A stretch of 64,000 nucleotides of DNA, taken from contig NZ_CVTD020000027.1 in assembly GCF_002904165.1 (NCBI RefSeq), forward strand, positions 1-64,000, given 5' to 3'. This document shows, piece after piece, positions 4,058 through 23,839 of this stretch; the first letter of the stretch is position 1, and every line of letters begins with the position of its first letter. Source of the DNA: Herbinix hemicellulosilytica. GTDB lineage: Bacteria > Bacillota > Clostridia > Lachnospirales > Lachnospiraceae. The notes beneath the pieces are model-generated. The model worked only from the letters and a program-made list of their open reading frames with translations, was not told where the DNA came from and did no database searches. A program made the position numbers and the translations under genes.

Positions 4058-5233
4058 TCAAGCAAAAAATTCCCTTAAAACATCCTCAATAAGTTTTTCT
4101 TCTTCCGGGGACATATTCATAAATAATTTACTCTCATACTTTTCATTATCTTTATCTGCGGCTTCTTCCTTATCCGCAGCTATTTCTTCAATGCTGTCTT
4201 TAATTTGTTTTTCCTCCGCAGCAAAATTATCATCCTTAAACGGTTTTTCGCCGGCTTTAACGGTATCATCTGTATACATATCTTCTTTAAGACCTTGTAA
4301 ATCATCTCTTAAATCATTTATAGATTTTTCTTTCTCTTCTTTCTCCTTGTATCTTAACTCGTTTTGACGCTGCTTTTCTTCAGCCTTCTTTATCAATTCC
4401 TCTCTGCGGCGCATAAGAGCTTCTCTTTCTTCCCTGAGCCTGCGAAGCTCTTCTTCTCTGCGTTTAGCCGCAAGCATTTTTCTTTCTTCCTGCAGTCTTC
4501 TTTCTTCTTCTTTTCTGGCTTCTTCCAATTTACGTTTTTCTTCTTCTTTTCGTAGTGCTTCCAGCCGTTTTTCTTCCTTCTTTCTTCTTCTAGCCTCTTT
4601 TCGGCTTATTTTTTCGCTGCGTTTGTCAGCTTCCTTGTCCGCTTTTGAATCCTTTAACCCAACCGCATTAAGGAAATCCTTTCTGTATTGCTCCAATTTT
4701 TCAGGTTGGGTAAGTTCATGTTCCATTCTAACTTTACAGAAATTCTCAAGGTAATCCAGAAGATTTAATCGTATTACCTGTTTTTTTACCGGCAAATTTA
4801 TCATTTTATCCACAAAAATTAAAACTGCGCCTGCTAAAATACCCACAGCCCCTGTGTATAAAATGTTCTCACGATCCACATCGTAAATAACCCCGAAAAC
4901 AGCACTAATCGGAATGATTAAGAAGTTAAGATATAAGACTTGTCCACTTAAGTTTTCCCATGTGGATAATAATAATCCACAAAATCTATACTTTGTCATG
5001 CTTTTATCCACAAAAGTATCCACATTATTCACACCGATATTAAGTTTATAACAGGTTTCAAATTTCATTTTCATGTGCTTTAATAATTTATTCTTAGTAG
5101 TCCCCAGCTTGTCCGACTGTTTTACCAAATATATGTAAACTATATCCAAAATTAAACGGAGGACAATACCCAGACCGCATAAGCCAGAAAAACCATAGAT
5201 AATATAATTTTTGTCATAAAACTCCCGAATCAT
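4058..5233 (-). CDS. Membrane protein with long charged coiled coil (unknown function)
   Basis: Not assignable to a named family. The N-terminal 150 or so residues hold about three hydrophobic helices (near residues 8-35, 100-120 and 125-145). A predicted coiled coil follows, rich in Lys, Arg and Glu, roughly residues 195-310, then an acidic tail ending in a PEEEKLIEDVLREFF helix. The start is the ATG at 5233 because AGAGAGGGG sits 5 bases upstream; an earlier in-frame ATG at 5254 lacks such a site. The membrane-encoding part contains an unusual cluster of DnaA-box sequences (separate entry). The coiled coil suggests a membrane-anchored scaffold, which is inference only. Confidence 0.75.
   Translation of the reverse strand: MIREFYDKNYIIYGFSGLCGLGIVLRLILDIVYIYLVKQSDKLGTTKNKLLKHMKMKFETCYKLNIGVNNVDTFVDKSMTKYRFCGLLLSTWENLSGQVLYLNFLIIPISAVFGVIYDVDRENILYTGAVGILAGAVLIFVDKMINLPVKKQVIRLNLLDYLENFCKVRMEHELTQPEKLEQYRKDFLNAVGLKDSKADKEADKRSEKISRKEARRRKKEEKRLEALRKEEEKRKLEEARKEEERRLQEERKMLAAKRREEELRRLREEREALMRRREELIKKAEEKQRQNELRYKEKEEKEKSINDLRDDLQGLKEDMYTDDTVKAGEKPFKDDNFAAEEKQIKDSIEEIAADKEEAADKDNEKYESKLFMNMSPEEEKLIEDVLREFFA
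4806..5033. promoter_or_regulatory. Intragenic DnaA-box cluster
   Basis: Five exact matches to TTATNCACA fall within 228 bases: 4806-4814 (+), 4853-4861 (-), 4961-4969 (-), 5004-5012 (+) and 5025-5033 (+). Two one-mismatch copies lie between them (4973-4981, 5016-5024). Two boxes face each other 3 bases apart (4961-4981). Elsewhere in the window I noticed only isolated copies (for example 1261 and 51507). The boxes lie inside the coding region of the coiled-coil membrane protein. Binding by DnaA is inferred from the consensus. Confidence 0.7.
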
Positions 5234-5399
5234 AAAAACCCCTCTCTTTTCCATAATTTTACATATATTATAGCTTGTATAAAGCTGTTTGAAAAGAGAG
5301 GGATAAAAGAATCGGTAGACATAAACCTATATTAAATTTTATAAAACGATTTCATATTATAAATTTATTATTATTTTCTCAAAATACAACAATTTTCTT

Positions 5400-21356: not shown

Positions 21357-22439
21357 ATGAACACAGTAAAGATACTTACATCGCAAGCAGTTCCCGGTAT
21401 GGTTGTTTCGGAAGACATATACACAAAAGATCTGCATCTTATAATTTCCAAAGGAACCGTCCTTACTGATAAAATTATCACGAGGCTGAATTTCTATTCC
21501 ATAACCGATTTTTATATTTACTCCGATGAGAACCTGGTTAAAGTAGAAACAGATTATTTTGAAAATACCTTTTACACCGAGCTTAAAAAAAGCGAGTCTT
21601 TCAACCGTTTTTACCAGGCTTATCATAACAGTGCCAACCGTATAAAAGATTCCATGGACAGCATTATGGATAATCATAATGAATTTGATGCAGACAAATT
21701 ATTGTCCGAAGTCCGAAATATATTGTACCATTGCAGCACAAATATAGAGCTTTTTCATATGCTCCATTGTATGAGAGAGTATGATGACACCACTTATATT
21801 CATAGTTTGAACGTAGCATTAATTTGTAATATTATCGGCAAATGGCTTCATTTCTCCTCGGAAGATCTTGAGGCTATTACCCTTGCAGGTCTGTTACATG
21901 ATCTGGGTAAACTTTTTATCCCTAACGAAATAATTACAAAACCAAGTAAACTTAATGACTTTGAATTTTCCATGATAAAAACCCATACTATCAGAGGATA
22001 TCAGATTCTAAAGAATAAGAAAATAGATGAAAGGGTTAAAAATGCCACCTTAATGCATCACGAAAGATGTGACGGCAGCGGATATCCAAACGGTTTATTA
22101 AGCCATGAGATAGACCCCTTTGCAAAATTGGTGGCGATTGCCGATGTATATGATGCCATGACCAGCGCTCGGGTTTACAGAGGACCTTTATGTCCTTTCG
22201 AAGTAATAAACCTTTTTGAAACGGAAGGTTATTTAAAATATGATACAAAATATATTTTAACCTTCCTGGAAGGAGTCGTTCAAACTTATATTAATAATAC
22301 GGTACGACTAAACAACAAAATGGAAGGGCAAATAGTATTTATAAATAAGTTTGACCTTTCAAGGCCGGTAATTTTAAGCAACGGTCAATTCATAGATTTG
22401 TCAAAGCAACGAGATTTATATATAGAGGCATTGATCTGA
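21357..22439 (+). CDS. HD-GYP domain phosphodiesterase (paralogue 2)
   Basis: A 360-residue cytoplasmic paralogue of the 98-1171 product with identical domain layout. The N-terminal segment is AVPGMVVSEDIY, the HD pair is in LLHDLGKLFIP, and HHERCDGSGYPNG is complete, so metal-dependent hydrolysis of c-di-GMP or a relative is expected. The ATG at 21357 matches the paralogue's N terminus and a TGA lies in frame 9 bases upstream. The nearest good Shine-Dalgarno (GAAAGGAG) is about 35 bases upstream, unusually far. A seven-codon ORF (21340-21360, counting its stop) ends with an ATGA overlap at this start. An ISL3 element lies just downstream. Confidence 0.92.
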   Translation: MNTVKILTSQAVPGMVVSEDIYTKDLHLIISKGTVLTDKIITRLNFYSITDFYIYSDENLVKVETDYFENTFYTELKKSESFNRFYQAYHNSANRIKDSMDSIMDNHNEFDADKLLSEVRNILYHCSTNIELFHMLHCMREYDDTTYIHSLNVALICNIIGKWLHFSSEDLEAITLAGLLHDLGKLFIPNEIITKPSKLNDFEFSMIKTHTIRGYQILKNKKIDERVKNATLMHHERCDGSGYPNGLLSHEIDPFAKLVAIADVYDAMTSARVYRGPLCPFEVINLFETEGYLKYDTKYILTFLEGVVQTYINNTVRLNNKMEGQIVFINKFDLSRPVILSNGQFIDLSKQRDLYIEALI

Positions 22440-22663: not shown

Positions 22664-23839
22664 ATGCTTAATAAGCATATCACATCTTTATTAAATTTGG
22701 AAGGTATTTTTGTAAAAAAAATCAACCACGCAGATAATTATTTAAAAATTTATATTGAAACAAAAGCCACAACACAGATTTGCCCTTGTTGTCATCAACA
22801 AACTAAACAGATACATGATTACCGTTATCAAAAAATTAAAGATTTACCTTTACAGTTCAAAGACTGCTATCTAATTCTTAAAAAAAGGCGGTATCGTTGT
22901 AAGTGTGGAAAACGTTTTTATGAAAAATATCCCTTTTTAGCTAGATATCAGCAACGAACCACTCGTCTTACTCAATACATAGCTAATGAATTACGAAATT
23001 CGGTTTCTATAAAAGCTGTTGCTGAAAAATCTAATGTATCTCATTCAACGGTCACTAGAATTCTGGATACTATTCATTATTCTAGTTTCCCTTTGAAAGA
23101 TGCTATTGCTATTGATGAATTTAAAGGTAACGCTGAAACAGGTAAATATCAATGTATTATTGTTAATCCTAAAAAGAATTACATTATGGACATCCTACCT
23201 GACAGAACTCAATCTCATCTTTCTGCTTATTTTAGAGAAATGAATCGTAATGAAAGGCATCGGGTAAAATTCTTTGTTTGTGATATGTGGCAGCCATATG
23301 TTGATTTAGCTTATAGTTATTTTCCTAATGCTGTAGTAATTATTGATAAATATCATTTCATAAGGCATGTAACCTGGGCAATAGAAAATGTACGTAAAAG
23401 AATACAAAAATCCATGTCTCCTACTTTGAGAAAATACTACAAAAGAAGCCGTAAATTAATTCTTACCAGGTATTATAAGTTAAAGGATGAAGATAAAAAA
23501 GCCTGTGATCTTATGCTGCTTTATAACGATGATTTAAGGAAAGCTCATATGCTTAAAGAATGGTTTTATGATATTTGTCATAATGAAAAGTATTCTATTC
23601 AAAGAAAAGAATTATTTGAATGGATAAAGAATGCAGAAAACTCAGGCATTAAAGAGTTTAAAAAATGTGCAGCAACTTTCCGACATTGGTCAAAAGAAAT
23701 ACTAAATGCATTTAAATATGGCTTAACCAATGGTGTAACAGAGGGATTTAATAATAAAATAAAGGTACTTAAGCGTATATCATATGGTATAAAAAACTTT
23801 GAAAGATTTCGTACACGTATCTTACATTCTTGCAATTAA
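22664..23839 (+). CDS. ISL3-family transposase
   Basis: A 391-residue DDE transposase that moves the element around it. The N terminus has a zinc-binding pattern (CPCCHQQ and CKCGKRFYEKY, residues about 39-87) and a helix-turn-helix-like stretch (VSIKAVAEKSNVSHSTVTRILD). The catalytic triad candidates are AIDEFKG, VCDMWQPY and the Glu of GVTEGFNNKIK. The C terminus ends in the family's SYGIKNFERFRTRILH. No frameshift or internal stop is seen, so it may be active. ATG preceded by GGAGGT. Confidence 0.95.
   Translation: MLNKHITSLLNLEGIFVKKINHADNYLKIYIETKATTQICPCCHQQTKQIHDYRYQKIKDLPLQFKDCYLILKKRRYRCKCGKRFYEKYPFLARYQQRTTRLTQYIANELRNSVSIKAVAEKSNVSHSTVTRILDTIHYSSFPLKDAIAIDEFKGNAETGKYQCIIVNPKKNYIMDILPDRTQSHLSAYFREMNRNERHRVKFFVCDMWQPYVDLAYSYFPNAVVIIDKYHFIRHVTWAIENVRKRIQKSMSPTLRKYYKRSRKLILTRYYKLKDEDKKACDLMLLYNDDLRKAHMLKEWFYDICHNEKYSIQRKELFEWIKNAENSGIKEFKKCAATFRHWSKEILNAFKYGLTNGVTEGFNNKIKVLKRISYGIKNFERFRTRILHSCN

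Follow-up and report, generated by a model that had tools for sequence, protein, structure and literature searches.

A conserved DnaA-box array inside a membrane-protein gene of Herbinix hemicellulosilytica, a candidate origin-proximal titration element

Are DnaA boxes that lie inside a protein-coding gene there because the protein demands their codons, or are they kept as DNA, and if so, for what role? The question is raised by a locus in a 64-kb stretch of Herbinix hemicellulosilytica DNA (here called the window), in which a sequence-only reading had reported five exact and two one-mismatch boxes within 228 bp and had proposed a DnaA-titration or DnaA-regulatory locus that is embedded in a coding sequence and constrains it.

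A dense DnaA-box array in one reading frame

All seven boxes are present where they had been reported, with the five exact matches to TTATNCACA (B1, B2, B3, B5, and B7) defining the 228-bp span (Table 1). B5 and B6 stand in tandem with a gap of 3 bp, and all boxes of the array lie inside a single open reading frame (ORF) on the minus strand. No exact box occurs from position 5034 to 5399, a region that includes the upstream intergenic stretch 5255-5399. The facing pair that had also been pointed out, B3 and B4 with their TTA ends turned toward each other across 3 bases, does exist in the window, but it is not conserved (the site at 4973 is within one mismatch of a box in 3 of 33 genus rows).

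Table 1. The array and the gene that carries it; positions refer to the window, "genus" to the 33 aligned genus rows, and "other" to the 27 rows from other genera.
Feature	Positions	Strand	Sequence	Occurrence or remark
Membrane/coiled-coil helical protein gene, 398 aa, carries the array	4058-5254	-		ORF
DnaA box B1	4806-4814	+	TTATCCACA	exact 24/33 genus, 6/27 other
Weak box-like site, 2 mismatches	4839-4847	+	ATACCCACA	same 9-mer 13/33 genus, 11/27 other
DnaA box B2	4853-4861	-	TTATACACA	exact 11/33 genus, 7/27 other
Possible weak site	4872-4880	+	CGATCCACA	many relatives have TGTCCACA, one base shifted; weak evidence
Box-like site B8	4940-4948	+	TTGTCCACT	TTGTCCACA in 10/33 genus
DnaA box B3	4961-4969	-	TTATCCACA	exact 27/33 genus, 15/27 other
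One-mismatch box B4	4973-4981	+	TAATCCACA	within 1 mismatch 3/33 genus, 2/27 other
DnaA box B5	5004-5012	+	TTATCCACA	exact 28/33 genus, 25/27 other
One-mismatch box B6	5016-5024	+	GTATCCACA	1 mismatch 32/33 genus, 23/27 other
DnaA box B7, abuts B6	5025-5033	+	TTATTCACA	exact 14/33 genus, 13/27 other

The window holds 11 exact boxes against 2.95 expected, a number that none of 100 shuffles reached (largest, 9). Across the genome (3.04 Mb in 35 contigs) there are 176 exact boxes, compared with 110 matches to a reversed control pattern. Among the 174 of these 176 boxes that could be placed, the array is the densest cluster: every other 250-bp span has three boxes or fewer, the next-densest clusters being three boxes in 185 bp and three in 71 bp. 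No cluster of similar density, which would have spoken against a special locus, was thus found among the placed boxes. At the genome-wide rate, 0.013 boxes are expected per 228-bp span and about 2e-7 five-box clusters per genome, and a chance origin of the array is rejected both by this expectation and by the window shuffles.

Several smaller arrangements of boxes were seen elsewhere in the same genome (G000). Four exact TTATCCACA boxes at C26:90997-91583 (L061 8998-9584) lie between a murC-like gene and a pair of dnaD-like and helicase-loader-like genes (names assigned by eye), and this cluster is likely a DnaA-controlled or titration site. Three exact boxes at C25:23450-23520 (L060 9951-10021), two of them directly abutting, are intergenic and precede an hpf-like gene, after which comes a secA-like gene (likewise named by eye). 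A transposase-like ORF adjoins this second cluster (L060 10975-12102) and is nearly identical to one in the window (22664-23839), both being ISL3-like by eye. Near-identical repeats at C8:98272, C8:324235, and C28:50575 (L062, L063, and L066) carry TTATTCACA and TTATCCACA 32 bp apart, and C10:179529 and C22:5073 share this box spacing.

The protein encoded by the array gene matched no Pfam or NCBIfam family at an E value of 0.1. It has three hydrophobic segments (residues 17-47, 102-127, and 129-157), and the array codes for residues 74-150, a stretch that covers the segment at 102-127 and most of that at 129-157. An AlphaFold2 model of a 391-amino-acid form (mean pLDDT, 72.8; pTM, 0.43) features a long helix at residues 206-312 in the numbering of that form, a long coiled coil. 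A Foldseek search yielded nothing at an E value of 0.001 or better, with a weak best match to ExbB (E = 0.14), and a sequence search of the PDB gave two matches, ensconsin and SRPK2, both on the charged coiled coil. Elsewhere in the window, two HD-domain-like proteins (98-1171, a PF13487 match, and 21357-22439) look alike by eye.

Conservation of the boxes within and beyond the genus

An orthologue of the gene is present in 32 of the 33 other genus genomes (G032 had no match), and the genus codon alignment comprises 33 rows, the window's own included. Here the boxes are kept far beyond what the protein demands, the opposite of what the sequence-only reading had named as a refutation: at ten core box codons, synonymous identity is 4642/5128 (0.905), compared with 23147/48499 (0.477) at the other codons of the first 199. 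Likewise, the genus ORFs contain 104 exact boxes, whereas 200 codon shuffles that retain each protein and its codon usage gave 13.8 ± 3.3 (maximum, 22). Individual codons of B3 are nearly invariant (TTA in 31/33, TCC in 30/33, and ACA in 30/33 genus rows), and so is the GTG codon of B6 (32/33), B5 (31/33), and B1 (28/30). The degenerate fifth base of B2 and B3 varies while their remaining bases mostly hold. In B2 this base can be A, T, or C, giving Y, F, or S, and the box survives the amino acid change because it hits the free fifth base.

Ranking codons by their excess over codon-usage expectation gave a median of 0.80 for 20 box codons and of 0.04 (of a maximum of 1) for 103 non-box codons; the set of 20 takes in B8, a site that was not predicted in advance and was added post hoc because of its conservation (codons GGA and CAA, 33/33 genus rows each), while the ten-codon set above excludes it. 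The same ranking picks out codons 5 and 7, which are frozen (30/30 each) and lie in a ribosome-site-like stretch before an inner ATG, suggesting that it detects real DNA constraint. Since these two codons are frozen as well, translation probably begins at the inner ATG at 5233 instead of at 5254, giving the 391-amino-acid form, and the stretch itself is probably the ribosome-binding site.

Not all boxes are equally well kept. B7 and B2 each persist in a minority of genus rows and B4 is not retained, leaving B5, B6, B3, and, within the genus, B1 as the conserved core, together with B8. The tandem of B5 and B6, written as TTATCCACA-N3-DTATCCACA (a pattern chosen once its conservation was already known), is present as a single copy in 28 of 34 genus genomes, always within this gene. 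Two loci serve as natural controls inside the genus: L008 (genome G020) retains the open frame with no exact box, and L043 (G022), whose ORF is shorter, retains a single exact box of the five. The array is dispensable in both, and the intact frame of L008 implies that the protein can do without these codons. Taken together, these comparisons make it nearly certain that the box sites are selected as DNA.

The same box positions or spacing recur beyond the genus, at loci from Anaerocolumna, Anaerosporobacter, Mobilisporobacter, Anaeromicropila, Lachnoclostridium phytofermentans, Acetivibrio ethanolgignens, and [Clostridium] polysaccharolyticum, as well as in Lachnospiraceae MAGs, with protein identity down to about 28%. 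In 27 rows from other genera, synonymous identity is 0.849 at the ten core codons and 0.488 elsewhere, and 68 exact boxes compare with 11.8 ± 2.8 (maximum, 20) in protein-preserving shuffles, although some rows are near copies (e.g., L119/L120 and L115/L116) and the 27 are therefore not independent. Left out of this test were 29 loci judged to come from the same genomes as the genus rows (L076-L104), two duplicates (L110 and L125), and one partial locus (L133). B1 is mostly lost in these rows (Table 1).

As 58 loci had been gathered via peptide patterns that contain B5-B7 residues, those residues are over-sampled among them, a bias avoided by a profile search of the family with one genome per genus. 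This search found the protein in 80 of 160 family genomes. Among the 65 of 79 other-genus matches that were read (one of which, L164, is an 84-amino-acid fragment that cannot be scored), seven had at least two exact boxes (L042, L134-L138, and L143) and the rest had one or none, which marks the array as a clade-level trait that was added to an older protein family. In a quick tree of 98 rows and 118 columns, from which the array columns were omitted, all 38 rows with at least two boxes sit in one group of 46 rows (SH-aLRT, 89). Box gain and loss take seven changes on this tree, at least three of them forced by well-supported branches, compared with a mean of 30.6 after shuffling. The array thus likely arose once and was later lost in places, with L008 and L043 as likely losses within the genus.

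Position near dnaA and candidate roles of the array

The sequence-only reading had noted the absence of dnaA neighbors, which is true within the window; dnaA is, however, on the same contig (C27), 83.8 kb away, with the array on the side upstream of dnaA. The two genes are 49 to 174.5 kb apart in nine box carriers that have both on one contig, and 74 to 92 kb apart in the five of these on chromosome-size contigs; circular joins were assumed for G006, G007, G158, and G173, and short contigs can show short distances only. In the other carriers searched, dnaA was on another contig or not found, or the contig of the gene was uncertain (G102, G107, and G108). Box-less homologues are 60 to 230 kb from dnaA in all seven cases with both genes on one contig (7 of the 12 homologues searched). 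Being equally near dnaA, they suggest that the position is inherited, so that nearness makes titration plausible without counting as evidence for it. The distance from dnaA is kept and the chromosome arm is not: relative to dnaA, the gene lies toward dnaN in Anaerocolumna but on the opposite side in the window's genus. Inversions around the origin are common in bacteria and could swap the arm without selection.

We favor, with a probability of roughly 0.55, the interpretation that the array is an origin-proximal DnaA-titration element inside a reading frame, comparable to the DnaA-box clusters of Bacillus subtilis. The tandem B5-B6-B7, B3 and B1 on either strand, and the weaker B8 and B2 form an ordered array that is almost certainly selected as double-stranded DNA. 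We infer that DnaA binds it in the cell, given that the exact consensus is repeatedly conserved on both strands while the degenerate base is free. Owing to its proximity to oriC, the array would be copied soon after initiation, and the second copy would then bind several DnaA molecules, free DnaA would fall, and re-initiation would be held back, a mechanism proposed for the B. subtilis clusters and for origin-near boxes in Escherichia coli. Titration is made plausible by the nearness to dnaA, by searches of four genus genomes that found neither YabA (0/4) nor Hda above its curated cut-off (0/4), and by the presence of just two exact boxes around dnaA itself (C27, 87.0-89.7 kb). It plausibly fits a dense, early-replicated array in a genus in which these two regulators were not found in the four genomes. 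Against titration by the array speak the two other multi-box intergenic sites in the genome.

The literature on titration cuts both ways. In its title, Okumura 2012 reportedly terms the B. subtilis DnaA-box clusters oriC-proximal. A paper on E. coli states that initiation control by titration long lacked experimental evidence and describes boxes that are enriched near the origin and titrate DnaA (PMC12371093). In B. subtilis, six clusters jointly delay initiation, and removing all six leads to early initiation (PMC5295017, PMC13220808). The same two papers doubt a significant role of single clusters (PMC5295017) and report no over-initiation upon roughly 10-fold DnaA overproduction (PMC13220808), both of which argue against strong titration in Bacillota. 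In PMC4447404 the eight strongest B. subtilis DnaA regions are listed as intergenic, one of them spanning the small gene yyzF; sites within genes bind DnaA more weakly, and rplB was unbound in the cell. A coding array is therefore unusual, which is also a reason for doubt.

Two alternatives place the constraint in the gene product. That the boxes merely follow from a conserved peptide (NVDTFVDK, LSTW, FVDK) has the least to recommend it: FVDK and SGQ do occur in some box-less homologues, where TTGTCCACA falls out of FVDK, but the synonymous and codon-shuffle tests reject this explanation. Very unlikely, too, is a conserved mRNA hairpin, which is suggested by B5 and B3 being reverse complements in the transcript. 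Where both sites are within one mismatch, B5 and B3 are perfect complements in 33 of 55 rows, as are B1 and B3 in 27 of 37. Yet B5/B3 is broken in the other 22, mostly at positions 5, 6, and 9 (with G-U pairs counted as broken); perfect pairing is found in 1 of 21 rows for B1/B2, 0 of 9 for B8/B3, and 0 of 51 for B6/B3, the last being one end base off throughout, with eight pairs possible in most.

The other alternatives accept the boxes as DnaA sites and differ in what DnaA would do there. The main rival to titration is local transcription control, in which DnaA sitting on the array would act as a roadblock, stopping or modulating transcription of the membrane-protein gene and linking its expression to the amount of DnaA or the state of replication. 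We regard this as a minority option that deserves attention: the boxes lie on both strands, about 200 to 450 bp into the frame, and gene and boxes are inherited together in the clade, but there is no exact box upstream (5255-5399) and homologues retain the gene without the array, two observations with which a roadblock is still compatible. A DARS- or datA-like role in resetting the nucleotide bound to DnaA appears improbable. E. coli box clusters outside oriC can have this effect according to PMC5742627 and PMC5295017, but the DARS1 pair has converging ACA ends, whereas the array's pair has facing TTA ends and is not conserved, and B. subtilis has no IHF, as a review says (PMC13220808). It is more doubtful still that the array marks an additional or relic origin of replication or anchors the origin during segregation. 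In five genus genomes (G000, G006, G007, G016, and G023), exact boxes are denser at the array than around dnaA; the GC skew, however, turns at dnaA and not at the array, which indicates that the array is near the origin but is not the origin itself. The oriC hallmarks, a GC-skew turn with dnaA and dnaN as neighbors, are thus absent from it.

The original proposal of a DnaA-regulatory locus that is embedded in a coding sequence and constrains it is hence partly supported, by genome-wide density and by synonymous conservation. More tentatively, we suggest that in several Lachnospiraceae genera the codons of a membrane protein, and in part its amino acids, may be fixed by replication control rather than protein function; in the four tested members of the window's genus, neither YabA nor Hda over the cut-off was found. 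Literature searches limited to open-access papers listed none on a DnaA-box array within a coding sequence of these bacteria. Evolution has retained this specific array where the protein code would permit it to decay; in a few relatives it is gone. Synonymous recoding could remove the boxes with the protein untouched, providing a clean test of the array's role, and replication-control elements of this kind can escape surveys confined to intergenic DNA.

Comparison with known DnaA-box clusters

Among the E. coli sites, DARS1 and DARS2 are box clusters outside oriC as well, but they are non-coding, and the DARS1-type convergent pair is absent from the array. The bioD-uvrB stretch of E. coli, which we take to be the location of DARS1, carries two boxes with ACA ends pointing at each other across 5 bp, followed by a third box. 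The array does not match a DARS core, in which boxes I and II converge and a box III is added: its close pair has the opposite orientation and is not conserved. The listed part of L074 contained no DARS2 core. With datA, the array would share a high-affinity box cluster that limits initiation and the logic of replication dosage; datA, however, is non-coding, depends on IHF, and acts via ATP hydrolysis, whereas the array is coding.

The B. subtilis clusters also consist of several DnaA boxes outside oriC in an origin-proximal position. Like them, the array gathers consensus boxes within a few hundred base pairs beyond chance and is close to oriC, a trait it has in common with the seven box-less homologues. 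It differs in lying inside a reading frame, while the strong B. subtilis regions are listed as intergenic (PMC4447404, Table 1, in which the gene of the array is not named). The origin-near clusters named in PMC4585315 are similarly said to repress untimely initiation. Finally, the accumulation of boxes near the E. coli origin, as reported in PMC12371093, resembles the array in its enrichment near oriC and provides evidence for titration, but it is a broad trend in density, compared with one frozen array in a single gene.
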